DNA of 64,000 nucleotides from Crossiella sp. SN42. GTDB taxonomy: Bacteria > Actinomycetota > Actinomycetes > Mycobacteriales > Pseudonocardiaceae. The notes under the pieces were generated by a model that was given only the letters and a program-made list of their open reading frames with translations, searched no databases and was not told where the DNA came from. How positions within the stretch are numbered: position 1 is the first letter of the stretch; the number at the start of each line of letters is the position of its first letter. The position numbers and the translations under genes were made by a program. Location of the stretch: contig NZ_JAMHIV010000020.1 of assembly GCF_023897065.1 (NCBI RefSeq), positions 62,001 through 126,000 of the forward strand, given 5' to 3'. Shown here piece after piece: positions 8,413 through 63,165 of this stretch.

Positions 8413-11094
8413 GTGAAGCGAGCTTGGCTGACCGGGCTGCTGCCGGTGGCCGCGGCGCTGGTCGCGTTGGTGGCCATGGAAGATCCGGCCACCGCGGTGG
8501 ACGAGCAGGCGGCCCGTCCCGCGGTGGACCTGGACGCGCTGTTCGTCGGCGCGCACCCCGACGACGAGGCGTTCGCGCTGTCCACCTTCGGGCAGTGGCA
8601 CGCCGACCACCAGGTCCGCGCCGGGGTGGTCACCATCACCCGCGGCGAGGGCGGCGGCAACGCGGCCGGGCCGGAGGAAGGCCCGGAGCTGGGCCGGTTG
8701 CGGGAGGCCGAGGAGCGCAGGGCGGTGGCCAGGGCCGGGATCACCGAGGTGCTCAACCTGGATGAGGCCGACTTCTACTACACGGTGAGCTCGCCGCTGA
8801 CCGAACAGGGCTGGCAGCACAAGGACGTGCTGGGCAAGCTGGTGCGCGCGATCCGGCAGACCCGGCCGGAGCTGGTGGTCACCATGGATCCCGCGCCCAC
8901 GCCCGGCAACCACGGCAACCACCAGTACGCGGCCCGCCTGGCCATCGAGGCCTACCGGGTGGCCGCGGACCCGGCCGCCTATCCGGAGCAGCTCCGCGAG
9001 GAGGGCCTGCGGCCGTGGGCGGTCAAGCGGCTGCTCACCGGCGGGGCGCGCGGCCAGCAGCCTGCCGGGCCGGACTGCGCGGCGAAGTTCACCCCGGCCG
9101 AGGTCACCGACCGGGTGTACGGGGTGTGGGACGGGCGTCCGTCCACTGTGGCCGGTCGAAGCTGGGCGCAGGAGGAGCGGTCCGCGCAGCGGGAGTACGT
9201 GACCCAGGGCTGGGCCGGGTTCCCCGACGTGCCAACGGATCCGAAGCTGATCGGCTGCGACTGGTTCACCCAGGTGGCCAGCCGGGTGCCGTTCTCACCG
9301 ACCGCGAACGGCCCGGACGGGCCCCTGCACGGCGCGCTCATCCCGGCCCCCGGCGGTCTGCCGCTGGGCACCGGGGCCGAGGTCGAGGCCGGGAAGTTCA
9401 GCCTGGTGGCCGGTACCCAGGTGCCGGTCAAGGTCACCGTCACCGCGCCGGAGAACCGGGCGCTGACCAGGGTTTCCGCCAAGCTCGGGCTGCCTGCCGA
9501 CTGGCAGGTCACCGGGTCCGGGCGGCTCGGGACTGTCCTTCCTGGACGGTCGGCGACCGCCGAGTTCACCGTCACCGTGCCCTCGGCGGCCAAACCCGGC
9601 CGGGTGCGGATTCCGGTGGAGCTGGGCAGTGGCAATGGAACCGGGTACACCGAGACCGTGATCGCGGTGGTGCCGGAGCTGACCGCCGAGCAGCAGCCGC
9701 TGCCGCAGGTCGCCCAGTTCCGCGACTGGGCGCAGCGCAGCGGGGTGCCCGCGCTGGCCGACCTGGTGCCGCCGGTGCTGACCCTGCCCTCCGGCGGCGA
9801 CCGCGAACTGCCGGTCCTGGTGCGCAACAACGCCTCCGCCACCCGCTCCGGCACGGTGACCATCACCCCGCCGACCGGGTTCAGCGCCACTGCCAGCCTG
9901 CCGTTCACCGGACTCGCGGCCGGGGCGAGCACCACCCTCTCCGGCAAGGTGACCAACACCGACGCCGGCCTGCGCACCGGCATGCAGGGCGGCGACTACC
10001 GGTACACCCTCGCCGTCACCGGCGTCAGCAGCAGCACCCCGGCCCTGGAACTGGTGCCGCGCACGACAATCCCGAAGGCCGCCACCGCGCCGGCAGTGGA
10101 CGGGGTGGTCGCGCCGGGGGAGTACGCCGGGCCGGAGCTGGACATCTCCACCCGCTGGGAAGGCGAGGAGTGCGCCGCCGCCGCGGACTGCTCGGCCAAG
10201 GCCAAGCTGGCCTGGCACAACGACACCCTGTACGCGGCGGTGACCGTCACCGACGACAAGCTGGGCAGCGTGCTGGCCGCCGCGGACTGCAAACGGCACT
10301 GGCGCACCGACGCCCTGGAACTGGCCATCGACCCGCGCGGCAAGTCCGAGAACACCTCCACCACGCTGAAGCTGGCCGTCTTCCCGACCACCACCGAGGG
10401 CAAGCCCTGCGCGGCCAGGGACGCGGACAACTTCCAGGGCCCGGCCGCGGAAACGGTGCCAGGACTGAAGATCGCGAGCAAGGTGAGCAGCCCCTACACC
10501 GGCTACACCATCGAGCTCGCACTGCCGCTGGCCGCGGTGCCCGGCGCGCTGGACCCGGCCAAGGTCGGGCTGAACCTGTTCGTCTACGACTCCGACACCC
10601 AGGACAAGACCGGCCAGACCCGGATCGGCTGGTCCACCTGGGGCGGCGTGCAGGGCGACCCCTACCGCTGGGGCCAGGCCACTTTCGACGGCTACACCCC
10701 GCCGTCGGGCCGCCCGGTGGAACCGCCACCGGCGAAGCTGCCACTGATCGCACTGTCCTCTGTGGACTCTGCCCAGTCGGTGGCCCAGTCCGCGCGCACC
10801 GGGATCTCCCTCGGCGGCAAGCCGATCGCCAGTGGCCGGGAGGCGGCGCGGGTGCGCTCGGCCAGGACGCACGGCGACACGGTCACCGCCGGTGTGCTCG
10901 GCGCGCGCGGCACGGCGCACGTGTTCGTGCTGGACAAGGACGGGAAACTGTTGGGGCGCAAGACGGTCGAGCTGTCCAGAGGCTGGCGGGAGGTGCCCGT
11001 CGCGGTGACCGGCGGGCGACCGGCCGAGGTGCTGCTCGGGTTCGAGACCCCGGACGGGAAGGTCGCCGCCTCCCGGGTCAGGGTTGGGTGGTGA
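8413..11094 (+). CDS. Secreted PIG-L deacetylase with NEW3 and CBM9-like domains
   Basis: 893 residues. An N-terminal signal peptide (TGLLPVAAALVALVAM) precedes a PIG-L/LmbE zinc de-N-acetylase domain (about 35-280). That domain has the AHPDDEAF zinc motif near residue 47 and the partner His in NHGNHQYAARLA near residue 170. A central NEW3-like beta domain (about 310-560) follows, then a CBM9-like carbohydrate-binding domain (about 565-770; YAGPELDISTRW, LKLAVFPTT, YTIELALPL). The last 100 residues are a beta-rich tail. PIG-L enzymes deacetylate GlcNAc-containing glycans or glycolipids. The GTG start has GAGGAG upstream. Its position just behind a sugar importer suggests it trims an N-acetylated glycan outside the cell. 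Its stop overlaps the convergent SARP gene by 17 nt. Confidence 0.85.
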   Translation: MKRAWLTGLLPVAAALVALVAMEDPATAVDEQAARPAVDLDALFVGAHPDDEAFALSTFGQWHADHQVRAGVVTITRGEGGGNAAGPEEGPELGRLREAEERRAVARAGITEVLNLDEADFYYTVSSPLTEQGWQHKDVLGKLVRAIRQTRPELVVTMDPAPTPGNHGNHQYAARLAIEAYRVAADPAAYPEQLREEGLRPWAVKRLLTGGARGQQPAGPDCAAKFTPAEVTDRVYGVWDGRPSTVAGRSWAQEERSAQREYVTQGWAGFPDVPTDPKLIGCDWFTQVASRVPFSPTANGPDGPLHGALIPAPGGLPLGTGAEVEAGKFSLVAGTQVPVKVTVTAPENRALTRVSAKLGLPADWQVTGSGRLGTVLPGRSATAEFTVTVPSAAKPGRVRIPVELGSGNGTGYTETVIAVVPELTAEQQPLPQVAQFRDWAQRSGVPALADLVPPVLTLPSGGDRELPVLVRNNASATRSGTVTITPPTGFSATASLPFTGLAAGASTTLSGKVTNTDAGLRTGMQGGDYRYTLAVTGVSSSTPALELVPRTTIPKAATAPAVDGVVAPGEYAGPELDISTRWEGEECAAAADCSAKAKLAWHNDTLYAAVTVTDDKLGSVLAAADCKRHWRTDALELAIDPRGKSENTSTTLKLAVFPTTTEGKPCAARDADNFQGPAAETVPGLKIASKVSSPYTGYTIELALPLAAVPGALDPAKVGLNLFVYDSDTQDKTGQTRIGWSTWGGVQGDPYRWGQATFDGYTPPSGRPVEPPPAKLPLIALSSVDSAQSVAQSARTGISLGGKPIASGREAARVRSARTHGDTVTAGVLGARGTAHVFVLDKDGKLLGRKTVELSRGWREVPVAVTGGRPAEVLLGFETPDGKVAASRVRVGW

Positions 11095-13400: not shown

Positions 13401-14030
13401 GTGGTGCTGGACGCGTGGGTGACAGCGGTGACAAGGCTCGGCGGCGATTCGGACACGGCCCGGCGCAGCGGCGCGGAGCTCATCGAGCGGTATCGCGAGC
13501 CGCACCGCCGCTACCACGACCTCGCACACGTCGAGGCGGTGCTGCGCGACTCGGCCTGGCTCAGCGCGGAGCTCGGACTGTCCGAAGTGGACACAGCGGT
13601 GCTCGCGCTGGCCGCGGCCGCGCACGACGTGGTCTACGACGGCGTGCCGCGCCAGGACGAGCGGCGCAGCGCGGAGTGGGCGGGCGAGCGGCTCGGTGCG
13701 GCGGGGGTGGCGCGGGAGCACTGCGCCGCGGTCGAGCGGCTGGTGCTGGCGACCATCGACCACCTCGGCGAGGACCCGCTGACCCTGGCGCTGCTGGACG
13801 CCGACCTCGCGGTGCTGGGCGGCGCCGAGGCCGAGTACGACCGGTACGCGCGGGCGGTGCGCGCGGAGTACGCGCACGTGCCCGAGCCGGACTGGCGGCG
13901 CGGGCGGGGCGCGGTGCTGGCCGGGCTGATCGCGCGGGAGCCGCTGTACCGCAGCGCGCCGGCCCGGGCGCGCTGGGAGGCGCGGGCCAAGGCCAACCTA
14001 AAACGTGAAGAACATTCATTCGGCGGGTGA
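13401..14030 (+). CDS. HD-superfamily metal-dependent phosphohydrolase (predicted)
   Basis: 209 residues. The N-terminal half contains RRYHDLAHVEAVL (about residues 33-45), then LALAAAAHDVVYDG (about 65-78). These give the His...His-Asp metal-binding set of small stand-alone HD-domain proteins. This group is usually annotated as predicted metal-dependent phosphohydrolases; the natural substrate is unknown. The GTG start at 13401 has AGGAG 5 nt upstream. It is divergent from the SARP regulator across about 145 bp. The C-terminal 20 residues are basic and charged. Confidence 0.8.
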   Translation: MVLDAWVTAVTRLGGDSDTARRSGAELIERYREPHRRYHDLAHVEAVLRDSAWLSAELGLSEVDTAVLALAAAAHDVVYDGVPRQDERRSAEWAGERLGAAGVAREHCAAVERLVLATIDHLGEDPLTLALLDADLAVLGGAEAEYDRYARAVRAEYAHVPEPDWRRGRGAVLAGLIAREPLYRSAPARARWEARAKANLKREEHSFGG

Positions 14031-15965: not shown

Positions 15966-16904
15966 GTGTCCCCGCTGACCACCACCGAACTGGACGCCGC
16001 AGGCGTGCTCGAACCGTCGCTGCGCACCGCCTACCGCCGCTGCCGGGAAATCAACGCCCGCTACGGCCGCACCTACTTCCTGGCCACCCGGATGCTCACC
16101 CCGGCCCAGCGCCCGGCCGTGCACGCCCTCTACGGCTTCGCCCGCTGGGCGGATGAGATCGTCGACGACCAGGGCGACGGGCGCACCCTGGCCCAGCGCC
16201 GGGCCGCGCTGGCGGAGCTGGGCGCGGACCTGGCCGAGGGGTTCGCGCAGGGGCACAGCAGGCATCCGGTGCTGGCCGCGGTGGTGGACACGGTGGCGCG
16301 CTACGACATCGACCGCGGCTACTTCGCCGACTTCCTCACCTCGATGCGGATGGACACCGAGGTCCGCGAGTACGCCACCTTCGCCGAGCTGGCCCGCTAC
16401 GTGCGCGGCTCGGCCGAGGTGATCGGCTTGCAGGTGCTGCCGGTGCTGGGCACCGTGACGCCGAGGGCGGAGGCCGAACCGCACGCCGCCGCGCTGGGCG
16501 AGGCCTTCCAGCTCACCAACTTCCTCCGCGACGTCGGCGAGGACCTCGACCGGGACCGGGTCTACCTGCCGCTGGAGGAGCTGGCCGCCTTCGGCGTGGA
16601 CCGCGAGCGCCTCCAGCACTGCCGGCAGCGCGGCCACACCGACCACGCGCTGCGCGCCGCACTGGCCCACCTGGTCTCCCGCACCCGGGCCACCTACCGC
16701 CGCGCCGCACCGGGCATCGCCATGCTGGCCCCGGTCTCCCGCCCCTGCGTGGCGACCGCTTTCGATCTCTACCAAGGCATCCTGGACGAGATCGAGGCCG
16801 CCGACTACCGGGTCCTGGACCGCCGCGTGGTGGTCCCCAAGACCCGCCGCTTGGCCGTGGCCCTGCCCGGATTCGGCCGAGCCGTACTGGCCCGATGGGC
16901 CTAA
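15966..16904 (+). CDS. crtB: Phytoene/squalene synthase family protein
   Basis: 312 residues, trans-isoprenyl diphosphate synthase head-to-head family. It has both Asp-rich motifs: [10 protein letters not shown] (about residues 59-68) and [19 protein letters not shown] (about 181-199). Between them lie DFLTSMRMD and [13 protein letters not shown], typical of CrtB. The enzyme joins two geranylgeranyl diphosphates to phytoene, the first committed carotenoid step. No other carotenoid gene is in the window, so a squalene- or hopanoid-type role cannot be excluded. The GTG at 15966 opens the conserved frame. The stop overlaps the convergent cebR stop by 4 nt. Confidence 0.8.
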
Positions 16905-17923
16905 GCCGAGTCCCGGCGGATCAGCTCGACCGGGAGCATGCGGTTGGGCTGGGCGACCTCGTTGCCGCGCAGGCGTTCGCGCAGGATGGCGACCATCTCG
17001 CGGACCTGCGCGCCGGGGTCCTGGCGGATGGTGGTCAGGCTCGGCTGGGCCTGCTGCACCACCGAGGGCAGGTCGTCGAAGCCCACCACCGCCACGTCCT
17101 CGGGCACCCGGCGGCCGGCCGCGCGCAGCACCCGCAGCGCGCCCACCGCCATCAGGTCGCTGGCCGCGACCACCCCGTCCAGGTCCGGCACCCGGGCCAG
17201 CAGCTCGGCCATCGCGCGCTCGCCGCCCTCCCGGTTGAACTCCGCGGGCGCGGCGCAGCGCTCGGCCTCGGCCGGGGTCAGGCCCAGTGCGGTGCGCCAG
17301 CCGGTGAGCCGGTCCACCGCGGCGGCCTGGTCGGCGGGGCCGCAGACCGTCACGATCCGCTTGCGGCCCTGGGCCAGCAGCAGTTCGGTGGCCGCGCGGG
17401 CGCCGCCCTCGTTGTCCACCGTGACCACGTCCAGGCCCTGCTCGCCGCGCCACGGGCGGCCGCCGAAGACCACCGGGACGCCCAGCGAGCGCACCGCCTC
17501 CGGCAACGGGTCGCCGCGGCGCGGGGTGAACAGCAGCGCGCCGTCGGTGTGCCCGGAGCCCAGGAACCGCACCACCCGCTCGACCTCCTCGGGGGAGCGG
17601 GCGATCAGCAGCGCCATCTGGGCGTCCACAGTGGACAGTTCGTGGTGCGCGGCGCGGATCACCGCGGCGAAGAACGGGTCCTCGAACAGCTTCTCGCCCG
17701 GTTCGGAGAGCACCACCGCCAGGGTGCCGGTGCGCCGGGTGACCAGCGAGCGCGCGGCCTGGTTGGGCCGGTAGCCCAGTTCGGCCACCGCGCGCTGCAC
17801 GGTCTCCCTGGTCCGCGCGCTCACCCGGCTCGCGCCGTTGACCACGCGGGAGACGGTCGCCCTGGAGATGCCCGCGTGCGCGGCGACATCCTCCAGTGTC
17901 GGCCGGGCCGGTCGTTCCGCCAC
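16901..17923 (-). CDS. cebR: LacI-family repressor of cellobiose genes (CebR-like)
   Basis: 340 residues. The N-terminal LacI helix-turn-helix reads [22 protein letters not shown] (about residues 9-30), followed by the hinge [11 protein letters not shown]. The rest is a periplasmic-binding-protein-like effector domain ending with [27 protein letters not shown]. It is divergent from a binding protein, two permeases and a GH1 beta-glucosidase, the exact gene order of the Streptomyces cebR/cebEFG-bglC locus. There CebR binds TGGGAGCGCTCCCA and releases it on cellobiose. Two such boxes lie in the intergenic region here. The GTG start at 17923 has AGGGGTG upstream; the open frame to 18088 runs through operator DNA. 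Confidence 0.9.
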
Positions 17924-19447: not shown

Positions 19448-20413
19448 ATGGCGGCCCCGGTCACCGACCGTCCACTTCGGACATCCCAGCAGCCATCGCC
19501 GCGCAAGCGGCGGTGGCCGCTGGCCCGTCTGGACACCAAGGTCACCCCGTACCTGCTCGTGGCCCCGTTCTTCCTGATCTTCGGGGCGTTCGGGCTGTTC
19601 CCGCTGCTCTACACCGCCTGGGTGTCCCTGCACGACTGGCAGCTCGTGGACGGCGAGCAGGGCTTCGCCGGCCTGGACAACTACACCGCGCTCTTCGGCG
19701 ATCCGAACTTCTACAACGCGCTGGGCAACACGGTGAGCATGTTCCTGCTCTCCACCGTGCCCCAGCTGCTGGCCGCGCTCGGCCTGGCCGCGCTGCTGGA
19801 CCGGGGGCTGCGCGGGCGCACCTTCTGGCGGGCCGGGCTGCTGCTGCCCAACGTGGTCTCGGTGGTCGCGGTCGCGCTGGTGTTCACCCAGATCTTCGGC
19901 CGCGACTTCGGCGTGGTGAACTACCTGCTGGAGCTCATCGGCCTGGACCGGGTCAACTGGCAGGCCGACTCCTGGTCCTCGCACCTGGCGGTCAGCGCGA
20001 TGGTGATGTGGCGCTGGACCGGCTACAACGCGCTGCTCTACCTGGCCGCGATGCAGTCGGTGCCACGGGAGCAGTACGAGGCGGCCACCGTGGACGGCGC
20101 CTCCCGGTGGCGGATGTTCTGGTCCATCACCGTGCCCAGCATCCGGCCCACCATCATGTTCACCGTGGTGGTCTCCACCATCGCCGGCATGCAGCTGTTC
20201 GTGGAGCCGACCCTGTTCGACCCCAAGGGCGCCTCCGGGGTCGGCGGCAGCGACCGGCAGTTCCAGACGCTGACGATGTACCTGTACGAGAAGGGTTTCC
20301 GGTTGTTCGACGCCGGATACGCCTCCGCCATCGCCTGGGTGCTGTTCCTGGTGGTGCTGGTCTTCGCACTGGTCAACTTCACGCTGGCGCGGCGTATCGC
20401 GTCGAAGGGGTGA
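19448..20413 (+). CDS. cebF: Cellobiose ABC transporter permease, MalF type
   Basis: 321 residues. A basic N-terminal tail (RKRRWPLARLDTK) leads into six membrane helices starting VTPYLLVAPFFLIFGAFGLFPLLYTAWVSL. The EAA loop reads REQYEAATVDGASRWRMFWSITVP near residues 207-230. The gene starts 4 nt after the cebE stop and ends overlapping or abutting cebG, so the three are co-translated. It forms the channel with CebG. No dedicated ATPase is encoded in the locus; in Streptomyces the shared ATPase MsiK powers this importer, and a similar arrangement is likely. Confidence 0.88.
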   Translation: MAAPVTDRPLRTSQQPSPRKRRWPLARLDTKVTPYLLVAPFFLIFGAFGLFPLLYTAWVSLHDWQLVDGEQGFAGLDNYTALFGDPNFYNALGNTVSMFLLSTVPQLLAALGLAALLDRGLRGRTFWRAGLLLPNVVSVVAVALVFTQIFGRDFGVVNYLLELIGLDRVNWQADSWSSHLAVSAMVMWRWTGYNALLYLAAMQSVPREQYEAATVDGASRWRMFWSITVPSIRPTIMFTVVVSTIAGMQLFVEPTLFDPKGASGVGGSDRQFQTLTMYLYEKGFRLFDAGYASAIAWVLFLVVLVFALVNFTLARRIASKG

Positions 20414-31539: not shown

Positions 31540-31669
31540 GGTGGACTCCCCAATCGGCGGCAGTAGGAGGGTTGTCCACCCAGCCAACACGCCTGCCCGC
31601 GCACCGGCCACCGGAGAAGGCAGCCCCCGGCCACGACTTTCGTCGGAAAGGTCCGGTGTGGACAGAAGG

Positions 31670-36373: not shown

Positions 36374-36826
36374 TCCAGGGTGTCCACAGTGGACTGGCCG
36401 CTCGAACATGGTCTCCAGGGACATCACCGTCTGGGTGCCGGAGACTCCTTTGACCGCGAAGACGCGGCGCAGCACGTCCTGCAACTCTTCCGTGGTGCCG
36501 GTGCGCACCTTCAGCATCACCGAGGCCGCGCCCGCCACGATGTGCGCTTCCTGAACCTCCGGTATCGCCGTGAAGGCCTTCCGGGTGGCCGCTTCGCCCA
36601 TCCAGGCCTTGGCCTCCACCAGTACGAAGGACAGCACGCCCGCGCCGACCGCGGCCGGGTCGACCTCGACGGTGGTGCGGCGGATGATCCCACGTTCCTT
36701 CAGTTTCCGGACCCGCTCGTGTGCCGCGCCTGCGGACAGGCCCACCGCGGCGCCCAGTGCGGCATAGGACTGGGTGGCGTCGTGCTGTAGCTCCGCGAGC
36801 AGACTGCGATCTGTGTCGTCCATCAT
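36353..36826 (-). CDS. Lrp/AsnC-family transcriptional regulator
   Basis: 157 residues. The N-terminal AsnC helix-turn-helix reads DDTDRSLLAELQHDATQSYAALGAAVGLSAGAAHERVRKLKERGII (residues 3-48). A RAM ligand-binding domain follows (VLSFVLVEAKAW..IPEVQEAHIVAGAASVMLKVRTGTTEELQDVLRRVFAVKGVSGTQTVMSLETMFER). Such regulators sense amino acids or related small molecules and often control a divergent gene. The SMP-30-type lactonase starts 61 bp away on the other strand and is the likely target. Confidence 0.88.
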   Translation of the reverse strand: MMDDTDRSLLAELQHDATQSYAALGAAVGLSAGAAHERVRKLKERGIIRRTTVEVDPAAVGAGVLSFVLVEAKAWMGEAATRKAFTAIPEVQEAHIVAGAASVMLKVRTGTTEELQDVLRRVFAVKGVSGTQTVMSLETMFERPVHCGHPGPVGAPG

Positions 36827-47310: not shown

Positions 47311-50300
47311 CCGCACGCCAACCCGTTGCCGCACTGCTCGCCGAGCTCGGCGCCCTGGGCGTCCGGCTGTGGGCCGACGAGGGGCAGCTGCGCTACCGCG
47401 CCCCCGCCGGAGTGCTCACCGGCGACCTGCTCGCCCGGCTGAAGGCGCACAAGAGCACCGTGCTCGCCCACCTCACCGAGCAGGCAGGCGAGGCCGCGCT
47501 CACCGCCCGGCCCGAGGAGCGCACCGAACCCTTCCCGCTCACCGACATCCAGGCCGCCTACCTGCTCGGCCGCCAGGACGCCTTCGACTACGGCGGCGTG
47601 TCCTGCCACGGCTACCTGGAGCTGACCTTCCCCGACCTGGACCCGGACCGGCTCTCCGCCGCCTGGGCGATCCTGGTGCGCCGCCACGACATGCTCCGCG
47701 CGGTCGTGCACCCCGGCGGCTACCAGCAGGTGCTGGCCGAGGTGCCGGACCGTCCGATCAGGACGAACGACCTGCGGGGCAGGCCGGAGACCGAGGTGGC
47801 CGAGGCGATCGAGCGCACCAGGATGGCCCTGGCCGACCACATCTACCAGCCGGATCAGTGGCCGCTCTACGACCTGAGGCTCACCCGCGCCGATGACCGC
47901 GCGGTGCTGCACATCTCGGTGGACCTGCTCATCGCCGACTACCTCAGCGTCAACCGGCTGCTCACCGAGCTGGGCAGGCTCTACCACCACCCGGACCGGC
48001 CGCTGCCCGAGCTGGAGATCACCTTCCGGGACTACGTGCTGGCCGAACGCGCCCTCGGCGACAGCGGCTCCGCGCACGCCGCGGCCCGCGCCCGCGACCA
48101 CGCCTACTGGTGGGGCCGCATCGACAGCCTGCCCGGCGCGCCCGAGCTGCCCCTGGCCGACAACGCCCGCAGCCGCGGCCGGGCCGAGTTCACCAGGCAC
48201 CGGATCACACTGTCCACAGTGGAATGGTCCGCGCTGCGCGGCCTGGCCGCCCGGCACGGGGTCACCGCCTCGGCCGCGGTGCTCTCGGTGTTCGCCGAGG
48301 TGATCGGCCGGTGGAGCCGCAACCCGCGGTTCACCCTCAACGTCACCCTGCTCAACCGGCTGCCGCTGCACCCGCAGGTGGACCAGCTGATCGGCGACTT
48401 CACCTCGGTCAACCTGCTGGAGGTCGACCGCACCGAACCCCGTGACCTGGCCGGGCTCACCCAGGCCCTGCAAGCGAGGCTGTGGGCGGACATGGACCAC
48501 CGGCTGTGCACCGGCGTGGAGGTGCTCCGCGAGCTGGCCCGCCGCCGCGGCCGGGCCGCCGCGCTGATGCCGGTGGTGTTCACCAGCATGATCGGTCTGG
48601 GCGACGACTCTGACGAGGCGCACGCCAACGGCCTGCTCGCCTTGGGCGAACTGGGTTTTGGCATCACCCAGACCCCGCAGGTGTGGATCGACTGTCAGGC
48701 CATGGAGGCCAAGGGGCAGCTGCTGCTCAACTGGGACGTGCGCACCGGCCTGTTCCCGGACGGCCTGGTCGAGGACGCCTTCGCCGCCTTCGCCGACCTG
48801 CTCCGGAGCCTGGCCGCCGAGGAGACCGCCTGGACCGCGGCCGACCCGATCGCCCTGCCCGCGAGCCAGCGCGCGGTCCGCGAGCGGGTCAACGCCACGA
48901 CGGCTCCGCTGCCGACTGGATTGCTGCACGAGGACTTCGTGCGGTCGGCACTGTCCACACCGGACGCTCCGGCGCTGTTCGCCGGGGACCGGGTGGTCAG
49001 CTTCGGCGAGCTGCTGCGCCAGGCCACCGCGGTCGCCCGGACCGTGCACGCGGCCGGGGGTGGCCGGGTCGCGGTGGTGATGGACAAGGGGATCGAGCAG
49101 GTCGCCGCCGTGCTCGGCGTGCTGCTCGGCGGCGGCGCGTACGTGCCGGTGGACACCAACCAGCCCGCCGCCCGTCGCGACCTGGTGCTGGCCGACGCGG
49201 GCTGCCGCCTGGTGCTCACCCAGTCCTGGCTCGCCGCCGGCACCTGGCCGGAGACCGTGCAGGTGGTCGCGGTCGACGCGCTCGAACCGGCCGGAACCGT
49301 TCTGCCGCAACTGGACACGCATCCGGACGAACTGGCCTACGTCATCTACACCTCCGGCTCCACCGGCACGCCCAAGGGCGTCATGATGAGCCACCGCGCC
49401 GTGCTCAACACCGTGCGCGACATCAACCATCGCTTCGCGGTGACCGGCGCGGACCGGGTGCTCGGCCTGGCCGGCCTGGGCTTCGACCTGTCCGTCTACG
49501 ACATCTTCGGCGTGCTCGGTGCCGGTGGCGCGCTGGTGCTGCCCGCCGCCGACCGCAAGGGGGACCCTTCGCACTGGGCGGAACTTGTTGCCAGGCACGG
49601 CGTCACGGTGTGGAACTCGGTGCCCGCGCAGCTGGAGATGCTCCAGCACTACCTGGAGGCCGAACCCGGGGTCGAGCTGCCCAGCCTGCGCACCGCGCTG
49701 CTCTCCGGCGACTGGATCCCGGTCACCCTGCCCGACCGGGTGCGCGCCCGCATCCCCCAGCTCCAGCTGACCAGCCTCGGTGGCGCCACCGAGGCCGCCA
49801 TCTGGTCCATCCACCACCCCATCGGCGAGGTCCCGGCCGGGGTGCGCAGCATCCCCTACGGCACCCCGCTGACCAACCAGACCTTCCACGTGCTCGACCA
49901 CGCCCTGCGGCCCTGCCCGGACTGGGTGCCCGGTGAGCTGTACATCGGCGGCCATGGCCTCGCCCTCGGCTACCTCGGTGACGCCGAGCGCACCGCGGAA
50001 CGCTTCCGCAGGCACCCGGTCACCGGGGAACGCCTGTACCGCACCGGTGATCTCGGCCGCTACCGGGAACAGGGCGTGATCGAGTTCCTCGGCCGGGAGG
50101 ACAACCAGGTCAAGATCCGCGGCCACCGGATCGAGCTGGCCGAGGTGGAGTCCGCGCTGACCACCCACCCGGCCGTCGGCTCGGCCGCCGCACTGGTCGT
50201 CGGCGACACCACCTTGGACCGCAGGCTGGTCGCCTTCGCCACCCCGGCCGCCAAGTCCACATCGGACAGTGCACTGCCCGCGGAGCTGGCCGACCGGGCC

Positions 50301-52742
50301 GCAGCCAGGGCGAACGCGGTGGTCGCCGACCGCGACCCGGACCGCTACGCCGCGTTCACCGCCGCCTTCGACCGGGTCACCCTGCGCATCATGGCCGGGA
50401 CGCTGCACGACGCCGGATTATTCTCCGCCGGGGCAAGGCACTCCGCCGCCGAAGTGATCGAGGCGCTTGGCGCGGTGCCCCGGCACCACGACCTCGTGCA
50501 CCGCTGGCTGCACGCGCTCACCGCAGCCGGACTGCTGCACCGCGACGGCGAGCACTACCACGGCCTGCGCGCCGAGGGCGAGACCGACGCTCTCTGGTCC
50601 ACAGTGGACGAACTCCAGGTCGAGCTCCGCTACGGGCGCGAGCTGGTCGACTACGTGCGGGACAGCGCCGCGCACCTGCCCGCGCTGTTCCGGGACGAGA
50701 TCGACCCGCTCACCCTGCTGTTCCCGCAGGGCAAGCTCACCGTGGCGGAGGCGATCTACCAGACCAACCTGATCGGCCGGTACATCAACCAGTTCGTGGT
50801 GGGCGCGGTCCGGGAGATCGCCGCGGCGCACCAAGGGCCGGAACCGCTGCGGATCCTGGAGGTCGGCGCGGGCATCGGCGGCACCAGCACCGACCTCATC
50901 CCGGCGCTGGCCGGGTTCGACGTGCGCTACCGGTTCACCGACCTGTCCCAGTTCTTCCTCACCGAGGCGAGCAAGCGCTACGCCGGCTACCCCTGGGTGG
51001 ACTACGGGATCTTCGACCTCAACGTGGACCTGGTCCGGCAGGACGTGCGGCCGAACTCGGTGGACGTGGTGCTGTGCGCCAACGTGCTGCACAACGCCAA
51101 GCACATCCCGACCGTGCTGGCCCGGCTCCGCGAGGTGCTGCGGCCCGGCGGGCACCTGGTGTTCATCGACGCCACCGGCGACAACCACCCGCTGCTGATC
51201 TCCAAGGAGTTCCACGAGGGCCTGACCGGCTATGAGGACCTGCGGCGGCACGACCACCGGGTGTTCCTCTCCGCGCCGGAGTGGCGCGAGCAGCTCGATG
51301 GCGTCGGCGCGGAGGTCCTGGCCTGCCTGCCCCGGCCGCAGGACCACTTCCCCGAGGTGGGCCAGCACGTGTTCGTGGCCAGGGTGAAGACCGACCGGCA
51401 GCCGGTCACCGAGACCGCGCTGCGCCGCCACCTCGCCGAGCGGCTGCCCGAGCACATGCTGCCCGCCCAGCTGTACATCGTGGACGAGCTGCCGTTGTCC
51501 GCCAACGGCAAGCTCGACCGTGCCGCGTTGAAGTCCCGGCTGCCGGTGGAGTCCGGCGCGCCGGAGGCCAGCGCCGAACCGCCGCGCGACGAGTTGGAGA
51601 CCGCGCTGGCCCAGGTGTGGGCCGAACTGCTCAACCGGGACCGGGTCGGCCGGGACGAGGACTTCTTCGCCCTCGGCGGTGACTCGCTGCTGGCCGCCAA
51701 GGTGGTCGGCCGGATGCGCGAGCAGGTCCCCGCGGCCGCCGCCCTTGACTGGGAGACCCAGCTGCGGATCGTGCTGCGCGGCACCACCGTGGCCGACTAC
51801 GCCGACCACCTCCGCGCCGCGCCCGCCACCACCGGCCAGCACGGCGGTGGCAGTTCGCTGGTCGAGCTGGTGCCGGGCCACGAGGAACCCGCGCTGGTGC
51901 TGGTGCACGACGGCAGCGGCACCCTCGCGCCCTACCGCGCCATGGTCGAGCAGCTGCGCCGCGGCGGGCGCACCGTGCTCGGCCTGGAACCGGCAGTGTC
52001 CTATGTGGACATTCCGGCGGAGGTGCTGCTGCCCAGGCTGGCCGCCGACTACGCCAGGGAGTTGCGCGCGGCCGGGCACAACCGGGTGGACGTGGTCGGC
52101 TACTGCATGGGCGGCCTGCTGGCCACCGAGCTGGCCCGCACCCTCACTGAGTCCGGGACCGAGGTGGACAGCCTCACCGTGATCAGCTGCTACCGCATGC
52201 CCTACCGCATCGAGGATCAGCTGCTGCTGGAATATGCCTTCGCCAGGTTGCTGGAGGTCGACCCGGCCCGGCTCGGCTATCCCGAGGACGAGCAGCGGCT
52301 CGGCGCGGCCGTGCAGGCCGTGCTCCGGCACAGCCCCGGCCTGCTGCCCGACGGCTGCTTCGCCGCGCTGGACGGCGAGTTCGCCGAGGTCGCCGCCCGG
52401 TTCGGCGCGCTGGCCCTGCGCCCGCACGAGCAGCGGCTGGCCGCGATCGGCGCGCTGCTGGCCGAACCGGTCGACCTGGCGGGCAGCTTCGCGGTGTTCG
52501 CGCACAGCCTGCGTGCGGTCACCACGTTCGAGGCCGAGCCCTACGCCGGGGACATCACCTTCCTGATGGACCGCGGCGACGTGCACTTCGTGCCCGACCT
52601 GCACGCCGGCATGACCGCGTACTGGCAGGAACTGTGCCTCGGCGAGCTGCGGATCGAGGAGATCCCCGGCGACCACTTCACCTGCCTCGGCCCGGCCAAC
52701 GCCGCCGGTGTGCTCGCCCTGCTGCCAGGGGCGGGCCGGTGA
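47307..52742 (+). CDS. Siderophore NRPS: docking-Cy-A(Cys)-MT-PCP-TE
   Basis: 1811 residues. Residues 1-50 resemble a TubC-type docking domain (LGALGVRLWADEGQLRYRAPAG). A Cy domain (about 75-500) has DLLIADYLS. The A domain (from about 538) has TSGSTGTPKG and again the Cys code DLYNLSLIWK. Between A8 (VKIRGHRIELAEVE, about 934) and the A10 Lys (LSANGKLDR) sits a SAM methyltransferase with ILEVGAGIGGTS (about 1183), the embedded layout of PchF and yersiniabactin synthetases. A PCP (GGDSL, about 1454) and a thioesterase (about 1520-1811) follow. The TE nucleophile motif reads GYCMGG, with Cys1600 in place of Ser, and the late His is in PGDHFTCL. This module adds, cyclises and methylates the third Cys and releases the product. 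Confidence 0.92.
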   Translation: MTARQPVAALLAELGALGVRLWADEGQLRYRAPAGVLTGDLLARLKAHKSTVLAHLTEQAGEAALTARPEERTEPFPLTDIQAAYLLGRQDAFDYGGVSCHGYLELTFPDLDPDRLSAAWAILVRRHDMLRAVVHPGGYQQVLAEVPDRPIRTNDLRGRPETEVAEAIERTRMALADHIYQPDQWPLYDLRLTRADDRAVLHISVDLLIADYLSVNRLLTELGRLYHHPDRPLPELEITFRDYVLAERALGDSGSAHAAARARDHAYWWGRIDSLPGAPELPLADNARSRGRAEFTRHRITLSTVEWSALRGLAARHGVTASAAVLSVFAEVIGRWSRNPRFTLNVTLLNRLPLHPQVDQLIGDFTSVNLLEVDRTEPRDLAGLTQALQARLWADMDHRLCTGVEVLRELARRRGRAAALMPVVFTSMIGLGDDSDEAHANGLLALGELGFGITQTPQVWIDCQAMEAKGQLLLNWDVRTGLFPDGLVEDAFAAFADLLRSLAAEETAWTAADPIALPASQRAVRERVNATTAPLPTGLLHEDFVRSALSTPDAPALFAGDRVVSFGELLRQATAVARTVHAAGGGRVAVVMDKGIEQVAAVLGVLLGGGAYVPVDTNQPAARRDLVLADAGCRLVLTQSWLAAGTWPETVQVVAVDALEPAGTVLPQLDTHPDELAYVIYTSGSTGTPKGVMMSHRAVLNTVRDINHRFAVTGADRVLGLAGLGFDLSVYDIFGVLGAGGALVLPAADRKGDPSHWAELVARHGVTVWNSVPAQLEMLQHYLEAEPGVELPSLRTALLSGDWIPVTLPDRVRARIPQLQLTSLGGATEAAIWSIHHPIGEVPAGVRSIPYGTPLTNQTFHVLDHALRPCPDWVPGELYIGGHGLALGYLGDAERTAERFRRHPVTGERLYRTGDLGRYREQGVIEFLGREDNQVKIRGHRIELAEVESALTTHPAVGSAAALVVGDTTLDRRLVAFATPAAKSTSDSALPAELADRAAARANAVVADRDPDRYAAFTAAFDRVTLRIMAGTLHDAGLFSAGARHSAAEVIEALGAVPRHHDLVHRWLHALTAAGLLHRDGEHYHGLRAEGETDALWSTVDELQVELRYGRELVDYVRDSAAHLPALFRDEIDPLTLLFPQGKLTVAEAIYQTNLIGRYINQFVVGAVREIAAAHQGPEPLRILEVGAGIGGTSTDLIPALAGFDVRYRFTDLSQFFLTEASKRYAGYPWVDYGIFDLNVDLVRQDVRPNSVDVVLCANVLHNAKHIPTVLARLREVLRPGGHLVFIDATGDNHPLLISKEFHEGLTGYEDLRRHDHRVFLSAPEWREQLDGVGAEVLACLPRPQDHFPEVGQHVFVARVKTDRQPVTETALRRHLAERLPEHMLPAQLYIVDELPLSANGKLDRAALKSRLPVESGAPEASAEPPRDELETALAQVWAELLNRDRVGRDEDFFALGGDSLLAAKVVGRMREQVPAAAALDWETQLRIVLRGTTVADYADHLRAAPATTGQHGGGSSLVELVPGHEEPALVLVHDGSGTLAPYRAMVEQLRRGGRTVLGLEPAVSYVDIPAEVLLPRLAADYARELRAAGHNRVDVVGYCMGGLLATELARTLTESGTEVDSLTVISCYRMPYRIEDQLLLEYAFARLLEVDPARLGYPEDEQRLGAAVQAVLRHSPGLLPDGCFAALDGEFAEVAARFGALALRPHEQRLAAIGALLAEPVDLAGSFAVFAHSLRAVTTFEAEPYAGDITFLMDRGDVHFVPDLHAGMTAYWQELCLGELRIEEIPGDHFTCLGPANAAGVLALLPGAGR

Positions 52743-53842
52743 TCGGGCTGCTCGGCGCCTCCGGCGCGGTCGGCTCGGCCGCCGCCGAGTTGCTCCCGTT
52801 GCCGCTGCGCCTGGGTTTTCGGCGGCGGCCGGCGCAGGTCAGGCCGGGTGCCGAGGTGGTGGAGACGGACATCACGGACGAGGCCCGGCTGGCCGAGTTC
52901 TGCCGAGGGTGTACGGTAGTCCTCAACTGCGCTGGCCCGTCCGCCATCCTCGGGGACCGGGTCGCCAGGGCCGCACTGGTCGCCGGCGCGTCCTATGTGG
53001 ACGCTTTTGGTGATGACGTGGTGCACGAAGCTCTCCGGTCCGCTGTTCTCCCAGTGGACTTCATCGCGGTGCTGTCCGCTGGCACCGTGCCAGGTCTGTC
53101 CGGCGTGCTGCCGATTTGGTTGACCCGCAGAGGTATTGCCAGCCTTGACCGGGTGTCGGCGCACGCCGGCGGGCTGGAACGCTGCACGCCAGCCGCCGCG
53201 GCCGACATGCTGCTCAGCGTGACCGGGACCGATGGCGCGGGCGGCTCCTACGGGCAGGCACTGGCCGCCTGGCAGGACGGGACGGTGCGGCCAGGGGCGC
53301 TGCGGGTCACCGAGGACACCCGGCTGCCGTTCTTCCCGGACCCGGTCACCGTCCAGCCCTACCTCAGCACCGAGGCCCAGCGCCTGGCTCACACCCTCGG
53401 CGCGGCCAGGGTGGAGTGGCACACCGTCTTCCCCGGCTCCCGCGCCCGGATGTCCCTGGCCCGCTGGCGCGCCGAACCGCCGAACTCACCGTCCACAATG
53501 GACCGCGCCGTGGCCGACCTGGTCACCGCGGCCGAGGTGGACCTGGCCGGTCGCAGCCCGTACTACGTGATCACCGTGCGTGCCGAGGGCCGCACCGCCG
53601 ACGGCGCCCCGCACCGGGTCACCGCCGTGCTGCGCACCGAGGACAGCTACCGGCTCACCGCCACCGTCGCGGTCGCCGCGGTGGAACAGGTGCTGGCCGG
53701 CGCCATCCCGCCGGGCGTGCACTTCGCCGCCCAGGCGCTGGAACCGGAAGTCCTGATCGAGCGGGTTCGTTCCGCTGGCGTGGTCACCGCGCTGGAGGCG
53801 ATCATCGACACCGGGGCCGAGGACGAGGAGGGCGTGCTGTGA
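52739..53842 (+). CDS. Saccharopine-dehydrogenase-like NAD(P)-dependent oxidoreductase
   Basis: 367 residues. It opens with a Rossmann motif, IGLLGASGAVGSAAAELLPLP, followed by VVETDITDEARLAEFCRGCTVVLNCAGPS and YVDAFGDDVVHEALRS, the pattern of saccharopine-dehydrogenase-type NADP-binding proteins. A mixed C-terminal domain follows. It lies between NRPS2 and the thiazolinyl imide reductase with GTGA overlaps on both sides, so it is an intrinsic part of the pathway. Possible roles are reduction of a second ring, reduction or transamination at the carboxyl end, or an opine-like tailoring step. None of these is shown by the sequence. Confidence 0.75.
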   Translation: MIGLLGASGAVGSAAAELLPLPLRLGFRRRPAQVRPGAEVVETDITDEARLAEFCRGCTVVLNCAGPSAILGDRVARAALVAGASYVDAFGDDVVHEALRSAVLPVDFIAVLSAGTVPGLSGVLPIWLTRRGIASLDRVSAHAGGLERCTPAAAADMLLSVTGTDGAGGSYGQALAAWQDGTVRPGALRVTEDTRLPFFPDPVTVQPYLSTEAQRLAHTLGAARVEWHTVFPGSRARMSLARWRAEPPNSPSTMDRAVADLVTAAEVDLAGRSPYYVITVRAEGRTADGAPHRVTAVLRTEDSYRLTATVAVAAVEQVLAGAIPPGVHFAAQALEPEVLIERVRSAGVVTALEAIIDTGAEDEEGVL

Positions 53843-54918: not shown

Positions 54919-56516
54919 ACGACAGGAGCTTCACGGTGGACAGGAACCTGAGTCGCCGCACAGTGTTGCGCGGCCTCGCCGTGGCTGCCGCGGGGGTGGC
55001 CGGCGGGTCGGTGCTGGCCGGATGCTCCGGTGGCCCGGCCACCTCGCCGACGACCACCGCGGGCCCCGCCAAGCCCGGCGGCACCCTGCGCGCCGCGCTG
55101 GTCGGCTCCGGCGCGGCCGAGACGCTGCAACCGTTCCAGCAGTCCAGCACCCTGGACACCGCGCGCGCCAAGGCTCTGCACGGCGTGCTCGGCACCCTGG
55201 ACCCGAACGCCCCCGACGGCGTGCGCTACCAGGTGCTGACCGGCATCGACCGGGCCGCCGACCTGTCCAGCTACACCCTGCGCGTGCGCAAGGGACTGAA
55301 GTTCACCGACGGCAGCCCGGTCACCTCCCGCGACGTGCTCGCCTCGCTCGCGCTGGCCGCGAGCACCGGCACCGGGCACTACGTGCGGCTGCTGGCCGAC
55401 TTCGATCTCGACCGCGCCAGGGCCGACGGGGACGACAAGGTGCTGCTGCCCACCCGCAAGCCCATCGCGGACGGGCACCTGGTGCTGTGCATGGGCACCG
55501 CCTACGTGCTCAAGGCGGGCACCACCAACGTGACCAAGGAGCTGCCCACCTGCGGGCCGTTCAAGCTCATCGAGTTCGAGCCCGGCCGCGGCAGCAAGCT
55601 GGCCAGGCACGACGGGTTCGCCGGTGACGATCTCAGCCCGCCCCGGCTGGACGGGGTGGAGCTGCTGTCCATCGCCGACCCCGAGGCGCGGCTGAACGCC
55701 CTGCGCGGCCACCAGGTCGACTTCGTGCACGACCTGACCCCGGTGCAGGCCAAGGTGCTGGCCACCGACAACAGCGTCCGGGTGCTGGAGTCGGCGATGG
55801 CGCTGTCCACCGGCCTGGTCTTCGAGCTGAACCTGGGCCACCAGCCGTTCCAGGACCTGCGGGTGCGGCAGGCGTTCAAGTACGCCATCGACCGACGGTC
55901 CATTGTGGACAATGTGTTGTTCGGGCGCGGGCACATCGGCAACGACCTGTTCTCGCTAGGTTTTCCCGACTACGCGGGCGAGGTGGAGCAGCTCAACTAC
56001 GACCCGGACCGCGCCCGCGCGCTGCTGCGCGAGGCCGGGGCGGCGAACCTGCCGATCACCCTGACCACCGGCCCGGAGACCGCGGGCATGGTGGAGGCGG
56101 CGACCCTGGTGGTGGAGCACCTGAGCAAGGTCGGGGTGCGCGCGAAGCTGGACGCCCGCCCGCCGGGGCAGCTGTTCACCGACTACATGGCCTACACCCA
56201 GCTGCCGTTCGCGGGCAGCTACTCGGTGGCGGTGCCCGCGATGCTGTACTACCAGTCGCTGTTCACCGCGGGCTCGCCCGGCGGGTTCGGCTGGAACCGG
56301 CCCGATGTGGACGCACTCGTCGTGCAGGCCAGGGGCACCGCGGACGCGGGCAAGAGCAAGGCGGCCGCGGTGGCCGCGCAGCGCCTGCTGTGGGCCGAGG
56401 GCAACACCATCGTGCCCGCGTTCCGGCCGATGCTGTGCGCGGCCAACCCCAGCGTGGCCCCCGGCGACGGGTTGCTGGAGCAGTACCCCGGCTTCCTGCA
56501 CACCGGTCTGCGGTGA
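54915..56516 (+). CDS. Opp/Dpp/Cnt-type ABC substrate-binding lipoprotein (Tat-exported)
   Basis: 533 residues, family 5 (peptide/nickel) solute-binding protein. A twin-arginine signal (LSRRTVLRGLAVAAAG) is combined with a lipobox (LAGCSGG, Cys near residue 37), so it is a folded-export lipoprotein. The body has YTLRVRKGLKFTDGSPVTSRDV and LVFELNLGHQPFQDLRVRQAFKYAIDRRSIVDNVL, the classic family 5 signatures. Family members bind peptides, nickel-chelator complexes or opine metallophores (NikA, CntA). Its position in the metallophore operon suggests it captures the metal-loaded product. The ATG at 54915 forms an ATGA overlap with the reductase gene. Confidence 0.88.
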   Translation: MNDRSFTVDRNLSRRTVLRGLAVAAAGVAGGSVLAGCSGGPATSPTTTAGPAKPGGTLRAALVGSGAAETLQPFQQSSTLDTARAKALHGVLGTLDPNAPDGVRYQVLTGIDRAADLSSYTLRVRKGLKFTDGSPVTSRDVLASLALAASTGTGHYVRLLADFDLDRARADGDDKVLLPTRKPIADGHLVLCMGTAYVLKAGTTNVTKELPTCGPFKLIEFEPGRGSKLARHDGFAGDDLSPPRLDGVELLSIADPEARLNALRGHQVDFVHDLTPVQAKVLATDNSVRVLESAMALSTGLVFELNLGHQPFQDLRVRQAFKYAIDRRSIVDNVLFGRGHIGNDLFSLGFPDYAGEVEQLNYDPDRARALLREAGAANLPITLTTGPETAGMVEAATLVVEHLSKVGVRAKLDARPPGQLFTDYMAYTQLPFAGSYSVAVPAMLYYQSLFTAGSPGGFGWNRPDVDALVVQARGTADAGKSKAAAVAAQRLLWAEGNTIVPAFRPMLCAANPSVAPGDGLLEQYPGFLHTGLR

Positions 56517-61453: not shown

Positions 61454-62362
61454 GTGAGCGAGATCGAACCGCCGTTCCGGCGCATTGCCGCCGCCATTGC
61501 CGCGCGGATCACCGCAGGTGAGCTGGGACCGGGTGACCGGGTGCCGTCCACCCGCGCGGTGATGCGCGCGTGGGGGGTCGCGCTGGCCACCGCGGCCAAG
61601 GCGCTGGACCTGTTGCGGCAACAAGGACTTGTCGAGACCCATCCGGGCGCGGGCACCGTGGTCCGCGCCCCCGCCGGTGCGCCCCGGCGGTCCTCAGCTG
61701 CCGCGCCGAGCTTGACCAGGGCCCGGATCACCACCGCGGCGATCCGGCTGGCCGATGCCGAGGGCCTGGACGCGGTGTCCATGCGCCGCCTGGCCACCGA
61801 GCTGGGCACGGGGCCGATGTCGCTGTACCGGCACCTGGCCGGCAAGGACGAGCTGGTGTACCTGATGATGCGCCGGGTCTTCGCCGGCCGCCCGCTGCCG
61901 GTGCCGCCACCGCCCGGCTGGCGCGCGCGGCTGACCGTGGTCTCCCGCACCCAGTGGGCGCTCTACCGCGCGCATCCCTGGCTGGCCGAGCTGGTCTCGA
62001 TCACCCGGCCGCGGCTGGTGCCGGAGGCCATGGCGCACACCGAGTGGACGCTGGCCGCGCTGGCCGGGCTCAAGCTCAGTCTGACCGAGCGCCTGCGTGA
62101 GGCGATCACCCTGCCCGCCTACGTCCGCGGCGTGGCCCTCGCGCACTCCGCCGAGCTGGCCGCGACCAAGGACACCGGGCTGACCAGCAGCGAGTGGTGG
62201 GGGGAACGGGAGCAGGAGGTCATGGCGCACCTGAACTCCGGCCGCTATCCCCATCTGTCCACAATGGACGCAGCGGTGGTGGAGGACCTGGACGGGTTGT
62301 TCGAGCACGGCCTGGCCCGGCACCTGGACGGGTTGGCGGCCCGGCTACGGTTGGGCGCATGA
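61454..62362 (+). CDS. GntR-TetR fusion transcriptional regulator
   Basis: 302 residues with two DNA-binding domains. Residues 1-75 are a GntR winged helix (FRRIAAAIAARITAGELGPGDRVPSTRAVMRAWGVALATAAKALDLLRQQGLVETHPGAGTVV). Residues about 85-150 are a TetR helix-turn-helix (ITTAAIRLADAEGLDAVSMRRLATELGTGPMSLYRHLAGKDELVYLMM). A TetR C-terminal ligand domain follows. The GTG at 61454 starts at the GntR domain. A leaderless transcript is likely. An operator-like palindrome overlaps its -10, so it probably represses itself and the divergent GNAT-C45 operon. An ATGA overlap joins it to the methyltransferase gene. Confidence 0.85.
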   Translation: MSEIEPPFRRIAAAIAARITAGELGPGDRVPSTRAVMRAWGVALATAAKALDLLRQQGLVETHPGAGTVVRAPAGAPRRSSAAAPSLTRARITTAAIRLADAEGLDAVSMRRLATELGTGPMSLYRHLAGKDELVYLMMRRVFAGRPLPVPPPPGWRARLTVVSRTQWALYRAHPWLAELVSITRPRLVPEAMAHTEWTLAALAGLKLSLTERLREAITLPAYVRGVALAHSAELAATKDTGLTSSEWWGEREQEVMAHLNSGRYPHLSTMDAAVVEDLDGLFEHGLARHLDGLAARLRLGA

Positions 62363-63165
62363 GCGAGGAGCGGCTCGACCTGACCGGCGTCGCCGACGAC
62401 GACGTCACCTGGACCCTGCTCGGCACGCTGTACCTGCGGGCCTGGGAAAGCGGCTCACCACAGCCGATACTGGGCGACCACCATGCCGCCGAGGCGATCC
62501 GGCGGATCGACTACGACTTCGCCAAGCTGCACCGGCGGGTCCGCCCGGAGGCCAACCAGTACCTGGTCGCCCTGCGCGCCACCCAGTTCGACGACTGGGC
62601 CGCCGACTTCCTGCGCCGCCACCCCGATGCCGTGGTGCTGCACCTGGGCTGCGGCCTGGACAGCCGCGCGCTCCGGCTGACCCCGCCGTCCACTGTGGAC
62701 TGGTTCGACCTGGACCAGCCCAAGGTGATCGAGCTGCGCCGCAAGCTGTACCCGGAACGCGAGCACTACCACCTGATCGGTTCCTCAGTCACCGACCCGT
62801 CCTGGCTGACCGGTGTCCCGGCCGACCGCCCGGCCCTGGTCATCGCCGAGGGCCTGCTGCCCTATCTGGGCGAGGCTGAGGTGCGGCAGCTGCTCCAGCG
62901 CCTGGTGACGCACTTCGGCTCCGGTGAACTGCACTTCGACGCCGGGGCGCGCTGGCTGGCCAAGCTCTCCCCGCTGGGTGCCTGGGGCCTGCGCGAGGCC
63001 GGCGAGGTGGAGCGCTGGCACCCGCGACTGCGCTGCCGGGAAGAGGTCGCCTTCACCGCTCGGTACGCCAAGATCCCGTCCCCGGCCTACCGGCGGCTCT
63101 ATCAGGTCATGAACGCGATCCCGTTCTGCCGCAACATCTTCCGCGAGTACCGGTTCAGCTTCTGA
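62359..63165 (+). CDS. LCMT/TcmP-like SAM-dependent methyltransferase
   Basis: 268 residues. The SAM site reads AVVLHLGCGLDSRALRL (about residues 91-107), followed by VDWFDLDQPKVIELRRKLYPE and LVIAEGLLPYLGEAEVRQLLQRLV. This is the Ppm1/LCMT-like class of O-methyltransferases found in actinobacterial secondary metabolism (TcmP type). The acceptor is unknown. The ATG overlaps the regulator stop by 4 nt, so the gene is under the same control. It converges on, and overlaps by 11 nt, the carboxypeptidase gene. Confidence 0.8.
   Translation: MSEERLDLTGVADDDVTWTLLGTLYLRAWESGSPQPILGDHHAAEAIRRIDYDFAKLHRRVRPEANQYLVALRATQFDDWAADFLRRHPDAVVLHLGCGLDSRALRLTPPSTVDWFDLDQPKVIELRRKLYPEREHYHLIGSSVTDPSWLTGVPADRPALVIAEGLLPYLGEAEVRQLLQRLVTHFGSGELHFDAGARWLAKLSPLGAWGLREAGEVERWHPRLRCREEVAFTARYAKIPSPAYRRLYQVMNAIPFCRNIFREYRFSF

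Follow-up and report, generated by a model that had tools for sequence, protein, structure and literature searches.

Why does the same 13-bp word recur, time after time and mostly within genes, in the genome of an actinobacterium? The question is raised by a 64,000-nucleotide stretch of Crossiella sp. SN42 (contig NZ_JAMHIV010000020.1, positions 62,001 to 126,000; hereafter the window), in which an earlier note had reported a dispersed 13-mer that overrides codon preference. The window corresponds to C13:62001-126000 of the host genome (G000), which comprises 9,719,922 bases in 82 contigs. In its full form the word is a dyad, as the note had proposed, in which GTCC and GGAC are separated by an A/T-centred 5-bp spacer, the best spacer being ACWGT. 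We found that the motif is a feature of the whole genome and not of the window. Our preferred explanation, to which we give about an even chance, is that the 13-mer is the dispersed dyad operator of a candidate dimeric, sequence-specific DNA-binding protein acting chromosome-wide.

Motif counts in the window and in the host genome

In the window the pattern gave 27 stranded matches at 22 positions, five of them palindromic and matched on both strands. These are the very 22 positions that had been listed before, and 100 dinucleotide shuffles of the window yielded a mean of 0.10 matches (maximum 2), in keeping with the earlier estimate of fewer than one by chance. The six near matches also listed (9141, 21376, 43545, 44170, 48212 and 58410) each lie one mismatch away from the pattern, and at 48212 the relative G003 has a perfect site. 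The figure of about 14 copies between 41.8 and 56 kb had to be corrected to 13.

Across the 9.72 Mb of the host genome the forward strand has 844 matches and the reverse strand 850; a control pattern, reversed and left uncomplemented, has 5 and 2. The readable 959,113 bases, about one tenth of the genome, hold 138 distinct sites, of which 46 are fully palindromic, and from these two sets of counts we estimate a genome-wide copy number of about 1,270 sites, or one per 7.7 kb. The window, which was also chosen for its density, is rich in the motif, with 22 sites where 8.4 would be expected from the genome mean, and ten of the 22 fall in its two nonribosomal peptide synthetase (NRPS) genes.

Architecture of the dyad

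The spacing of the two half-sites is fixed, since in 464 kb the combination of GTCC and GGAC was enriched at a spacer of 5 alone (102 occurrences, against 12-30 at spacers 0-4 and 6-11). The centre had been described as invariably A or T, which is partly a property of the pattern, where A/T is built in; when GTCC-N5-GGAC was counted with any centre, provided that at least one half was AC/GT, 138 of 148 sites in the 959 kb were A/T-centred and 10 were G/C-centred, so that the preference is not lost outside the window. One form with a G/C centre is GTCCACGGTGGAC, the counterpart of the palindromic GTCCACAGTGGAC. The other spacer half, taken over 184 stranded sites, was AC in 92, GA in 24, AT in 14, TC in 12 and TA in 8; GA, AT, TC, TA and TT are tolerated there, and halves made of G and C only are rare. 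Outside the core, soft symmetrical A-n-T flanks are present in the host genome, in G011 and in G039.

In a scan of all 4-base half-sites and gaps, this word, as GTCC-N5-GGAC or as the inner TCCA-N3-TGGA, took the first two places in the host genome, G003 and G011; in G039 it took the second and the fourth. When the scan was confined to coding sequence and set against codon shuffles, with any centre allowed, GTCC-N5-GGAC headed the list in G003 and in G011, came third by z in the host genome and seventh in G039, and it was not among the 16 top-ranked combinations of the motif-poor genomes G008 and G025. If the codon null is left out, G008 shows a mild excess (21 vs 8.0), which counts against a clean absence there. 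The CAGT/CTGT-N2 palindromes of G003 are, by our reading, largely the flank of this same motif, which lies in exact form inside 13 of 21. The half-site resembles the DnaA box (TTGTCCACA), and we rejected a DnaA-box reading because there is no T preference at -2 (0.14) and because forms such as GTCCGAAGTGGAC are common.

Selection on the DNA rather than on the protein

Genes were called by our own codon-model script alone and not taken from annotation. Over 864 kb, 130 sites were divided into 118 within genes, 10 between genes and 2 across a gene edge, at similar densities in coding (154 per Mb) and intergenic DNA (105 per Mb). Sixty codon shuffles, in which every protein and every codon count was preserved, left 2.6 +/- 1.7 coding sites (maximum 7) in place of the 118, and in the same comparison G/C-centred forms were depleted (9 vs 23 expected). 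The frame nnG-TCC-NNW-GTG-GAC accounts for 105 of the 118 coding sites; by reasoning, it is the frame of least codon cost. Where S-x-V-D is written as TCC-x-GTG-GAC, the x codon ends in A or T in 90 of 107 cases, as opposed to 5 of 48 where S-x-V-D is written in other codons; over the portion of the host genome read, 5.8% of third codon positions are A or T. It is therefore the DNA that is under selection and not the protein, which bears out the claim that codon preference is overridden, and codon choice in these genomes is partly dictated by selection on DNA words.

Retention of sites between relatives

The genomes G001 and G002 could be compared over 35 kb of aligned DNA at 92.7% identity, a single region with NRPS-like matches. 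All nine sites are retained there in both directions, one of them with a tolerated change, and their flanks are changing. Among control windows in the same frame, A/T-centred ones were kept in 229 of 978 cases (23%; P of 9/9 = 2e-6), and for all in-frame windows the figure was 5,124 of 10,704 (48%; P = 0.0013). The host genome and G003 were compared over 137 kb at 82.5% identity. Here 11 of 25 host sites are kept and 4 of 15 G003 sites are missing from the host, with 166 of 1,873 A/T-centred control windows kept (P = 4e-6). Of the 11 kept pairs, four are still motifs despite three to four changes of core bases: two in the window (13580 and 41805) and two on contig C35 (71383 and 72514). The central codon remains A/T-ending in 12 of 22 sites, compared with 581 of 2,013 controls (P = 0.016). 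Because sites are retained above controls but their outer codons are no better conserved than elsewhere (see below), the sites are selected yet replaceable.

Placement along genes and chromosome

Of the 138 sites in the 959 kb, 125 lie within called genes and 11 between them, spread evenly along genes and slightly clustered (mean 1.43 and variance 2.12 per 10-kb window). The most codon-biased genes, those with a G+C content at third codon positions (GC3) above 0.96, are poorer in sites (13 in 233 kb), and genes longer than 1,000 aa are richer (31 in 90.6 kb). Among the long genes, seven polyketide synthase (PKS) or NRPS genes hold 22 sites in 41.8 kb and the other 14 hold 9 in 48.8 kb, the domain scan being partial for two.

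The genome of G003 is a single contig of 9.44 Mb with dnaA at 4.84 Mb, and the variant GTCCGAAGTGGAC has 71 copies over this chromosome, with none at 2.88-4.05 Mb (1.17 Mb). Ten 20-kb samples from 3.0-3.92 Mb yielded 15 sites when all forms were counted (0-4 per sample), or about 75 per Mb, and the gap is therefore a thinning and not an absence. There is a mild orientation bias, in that 46 of the 71 copies run with replication. Of the nucleoid or segregation mark that had been suggested, the part that stands is a general nucleoid-protein site, which fits best; a polar or terminus-restricted mark is not supported, as this one asymmetric variant has neither the strong replication strand skew of FtsK orienting polar sequences (KOPS) nor a matS-like restriction to one domain. 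Named dnaA loci were of little use for mapping because the density near oriC is low (5 of 80 carried any site), and a DNA search placing contig C1 of the host in G003 found no long colinear stretch.

One small cluster of sites lies beside parB. At L228:3239-3329, and likewise at L327 from the genome G046, a ddl-like gene and parB (both named by eye) converge, and their ends hold three perfect sites in a span of 91 bp. Both open reading frames run through STVD there, the 21-kb locus has no further site, and the ParB of G046 is identical to that of L228. In G003, one site lies beside the ddl-like gene adjoining parB.

Distribution among relatives

Among named loci, the DnaA of the host comes closest to those of Saccharopolyspora (86%) and Amycolatopsis (80%, best segments), in keeping with a place in the Pseudonocardiaceae. 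At least 100 stranded matches were found in 29 of 35 relatives from the Pseudonocardiaceae (the largest number, 2,178, in G011), and the remaining six have 30-86. In other families of the order 5 of 24 genomes reach at least 100 (G039 917, G056 530, G046 179, G054 129 and G059 117), and the rest have 0-39. Of the 106 distinct sites in the low genomes G005, G008 and G025, no more than 2 are palindromic, and most spacers are GC-rich, so these sites look like background. A sample of 396 genomes from the phylum, in which the host was the sole representative of its family, is likewise near background: the motif occurs at least once in 260 of them, and the highest count besides that of the host is 17. 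The presence of the motif in the lineage is patchy, for within one family some genera carry it often and others at close to background level. No clear replacement palindrome was found in 200 kb each of the motif-poor G008 and G025. Even two members of one genus differ, G056 with 530 and G043 with 39 stranded matches, and contrasts of this kind open the question to genetics and pull-down.

A candidate dimeric binding protein

We infer that the motif is read by a protein dimer, since the fixed spacing of the dyad, the graded spacer, the A/T centre and the soft flanks together fit such a reader, and the copy number and the spread inside genes fit a chromosome-wide role. The dimer would contact GTCC and GGAC and would sense the DNA flexibility of the A/T-centred spacer. 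The protein would resemble a nucleoid-associated or chromosome-organising protein and not a promoter regulator. Selection maintains the roughly 1,270 copies of the motif, mostly within genes, where the prevailing frame costs one rare codon per site. A precedent for such a role is Gbn (SCO1839), a GATC-binding nucleoid protein of Streptomyces with more than 2,800 bound regions (PMC9239103). Gbn is likewise a sequence-specific actinobacterial nucleoid protein; its site is a different one, GATCWT, and the part of PMC9239103 consulted makes no claim that this site is overrepresented.

Several results weigh against this proposal. No binder was found among HTH_ParB paralogues or with a 19-bp consensus search of 10 genomes, and the architectural role is one that we infer. 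The motif is sparse near oriC (84 per Mb in the host genome, 43 per Mb in G003), and a low density at oriC together with a high density in PKS and NRPS genes could also stem from relaxed constraint. The flank of G003 deviates, with C at +3 in 0.50. Between the host genome and G003, 14 of 25 host sites are not kept at 82.5% identity, and the excess of retention is weak against the control of all windows (9,955 of 38,919; P = 0.035). Codons 1, 3 and 4 are jointly identical in 7 of 17 sites and in 2,017 of 5,949 control words (P = 0.61); as these outer three codons are no better conserved at sites, single sites are dispensable.

As regards the binder, a ParB-like paralogue was rejected because extra copies of HTH_ParB (PF17762) do not follow the motif count. 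Among 45 genomes, motif-rich or poor, 39 have one match, five have two (G009, G013, G026, G033 and G035) and G059 has none. The full 19-bp consensus, sought in 10 genomes as the mark of an autoregulated gene, has one site each in the host genome and in G001, both inside unrelated genes and not at promoters, and none in the other eight.

More tentatively, and with doubt prevailing, we hypothesise that the Pseudonocardiaceae and some neighbours possess an undescribed chromosome-wide protein-DNA system, in which a dimer with more than 1,000 selected, gene-borne landing sites, densest in PKS/NRPS clusters, could organise or silence antibiotic genes and could be gained and lost as a unit between genera. 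If the reader is indeed an architectural or silencing protein, the sites in PKS and NRPS genes would bear on the control of antibiotic clusters. The motif was not described among the open-access literature matches listed, a search in which most subscription journals are not covered.

Alternative explanations

A by-product of DNA methylation like that of the cyanobacterial Highly Iterated Palindrome HIP1 is unlikely, and is the alternative that survives best. An orphan methyltransferase would read the palindrome (GTCCACWGTGGAC), and mark-biased repair or mutation would make and keep sites. Its repair step is disfavoured in that, to our knowledge, MutS and MutL are generally absent from Actinobacteria, and most methyltransferases have strict sites, which the graded preference at spacer and flanks does not match. 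It is rare for a 13-bp dyad to be selected inside genes across a whole genome; the nearest case known to us is HIP1, the function of which is still debated. One further iterated palindrome each in the host genome and in G039 speaks for the methylation route, as does the fact that HIP1 (GCGATCGC) is likewise an iterated palindrome and that Elhai (2015) tied such palindromes to cognate methyltransferases, proposing mark-directed mismatch repair (PMC4390886, in part). Like HIP1, the present motif is a palindrome that occurs genome-wide, coding sequence included, far above expectation and is missing from some related genomes. HIP1 is, in contrast, an 8-bp word at about 1 per kb in another phylum and is solid, as are the alternate HIPs described with it (PMC4390886, in part), whereas here a gapped 13-mer with a degenerate, graded, A/T-centred spacer and soft flanks occurs about once per 7.7 kb. 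We class the motif with the highly iterated palindromes, from which HIP1 differs in having no such operator-like build.

Somewhat less probable again is a DNA-exchange signal, with motif-bearing fragments entering or recombining more readily and the motif accumulating by drive. The DNA uptake sequences of Neisseria and Haemophilus, which are tied to natural competence, consist of a 9-12-bp word in some 1,000 or more copies, many of them in genes, and the estimated copy number and gene placement of the present motif are similar. The peak of density in PKS and NRPS genes, which are often mobile, and the high turnover between the host genome and G003 would also agree with an exchange signal. However, known uptake sequences are directional words and not dyads, while the profile here is that of a dyad with a third of the sites (46 of 138) fully palindromic, and orthologous sites are retained above control windows, which drive alone need not yield.

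That the sites are simply the operators of a pathway regulator, or sporadic promoter sites, is disfavoured and very unlikely. A dyad is typical of helix-turn-helix dimers, but so few intergenic sites, the even spread along genes and the sheer copy number do not suit a promoter regulator. Short dyads also serve chromosome- or plasmid-wide proteins, as do matS (for MatP), the SlmA and Noc sites and the parS and KorB operators, two of which, matS and the KorB operator, share the length of 13 bp; all of these occur in tens of copies or are regionally restricted, and no extra HTH_ParB paralogue tracks the motif described here. Repetitive extragenic palindromic (REP) elements are likewise dispersed palindromic repeats; they are extragenic (PMC12306157, in part), unlike the mainly gene-borne sites described here.

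An RNA hairpin acting in transcripts can hardly be the explanation, as GUCC and GGAC could pair around a 5-nt loop but there is no pairing excess between -2 and +14 (41 of 138; shuffled 46 +/- 5), A and T are about equally common at the centre, intergenic density is close to coding density, and the sense-strand asymmetry is slight (42 vs 35 asymmetric coding sites). Chance, codon usage or a protein S-x-V-D motif is refuted, the one frame common to most coding sites notwithstanding, by the codon-shuffle null, by A/T-ending x codons being nearly confined to TCC, GTG and GAC occurring together, and by copies that lie between genes and in other frames.

The sites of the window and their neighbourhood

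The first site, 10755..10767 (+, GTCCTCTGTGGAC), lies in the gene 8413-11094, where it reads CTG TCC TCT GTG GAC; it is not kept in G003, where the counterpart GTCCTCCGTGGAC has a G/C centre. The second, 13580..13592 (+, GTCCGAAGTGGAC, gene 13401-14030), corresponds to GTCCACAGAGGAC in G003, with three changes and the motif retained. The palindromic GTCCACAGTGGAC at 17624..17636 (gene 16901-17923, minus strand) is identical in G003, and GTCCGAAGTGGAC at 19470..19482 (-, gene 19448-20413) is not kept. Three sites follow in a region (31650-40640) with NNH1-NACHT genes that has no long match in the syntenic region of G003, defence-type genes having probably been inserted or deleted here: 31651..31663 (+, GTCCGGTGTGGAC) between called genes, 36382..36394 (palindromic GTCCACAGTGGAC) in the called gene 36353-36826 (-), at a place with no alignment above 1.5 kb to the G003 region compared, and 39498..39510 (+, GTCCGAAGTGGAC) in the NACHT gene 37812-40676.

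The stretch 40864-57460 holds an NRPS cluster, possibly for a siderophore, that includes SBP_bac_5/BPD_transp_1 transport genes and a gene resembling thiazolinyl imine reductase, and the orthologue of 47307-56516 lies at 1,778,634-1,787,846 in G003 with 78% identity. In the first NRPS gene (40864-47310), the site 41805..41817 (-, GTCCGTTGTGGAC) is GTCCGCAGTGGAC on the other strand in G003, again with three changes and the motif retained; the motif is also kept at 43779..43791 (+, GTCCAAAGTGGAC) and at the palindromic 44706..44718 (GTCCACAGTGGAC), and it is not kept at 42036..42048 (+, GTCCTTTGTGGAC), 44772..44784 (+, GTCCTCTGTGGAC) or 45909..45921 (+, GTCCATTGTGGAC). In the second NRPS gene (47307-52742), the palindromic 50597..50609 (GTCCACAGTGGAC) is identical in G003, and 48953..48965 (-, GTCCGGTGTGGAC), 50255..50267 (-, GTCCGATGTGGAC) and 51998..52010 (+, GTCCTATGTGGAC) are not kept. 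The gene 52739-53842 has two sites, 52990..53002 (+, GTCCTATGTGGAC), identical in G003, and 53491..53503 (-, GTCCATTGTGGAC), where the motif is kept; 55898..55910 (+, GTCCATTGTGGAC), in the SBP_bac_5 gene 54906-56516, is not kept. The last two are 62257..62269 (-, GTCCATTGTGGAC), in the gene 61454-62362, which combines GntR and TetR DNA-binding domains in one gene together with TetR_C_1, and the palindromic 62688..62700 (GTCCACTGTGGAC), in the LCM-domain gene 62359-63165.

Further iterated words

A viral scan for TGTCCACWGTGGACA returned 87 stretches, of which 80 were counted as loci; 72 of the 80 have a single site, and they carry no host information. The phage-like contig L084 has three copies of GTCCGATGTGGACGG (2202, 5054 and 6719) amid many small open reading frames, two of them overlapping apparent ATG starts by eye. 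These could be phage operators, or may be due to chance, having been picked out of 80 loci. Three of eight L084 proteins have PHROG matches, to families of unknown function.

The dyad STTGC-N3-GCAAS is also iterated in the host genome, with 33 coding copies in 852 kb where 1.95 would be expected. Examples in the window lie at 7082, 26597, 29697 and 42073 (start of TTGC), and this second dyad often carries the rare codon TTG. Set against its reversed pattern the dyad counts 334/87 in the host genome, 394/85 in G001, 347/82 in G002 and 294/112 in G011, and it is below the control in G005, G007, G008 and G025; its counts track those of the first motif only loosely (48/119 in G004, 81/105 in G009). 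In G039, the stretch C1:80001-200000 (L175-L180) carries a HIP1-like 8-bp palindrome, GCGTACGC, with 46 copies in 90.6 kb of coding sequence, where 8.1 would be expected.

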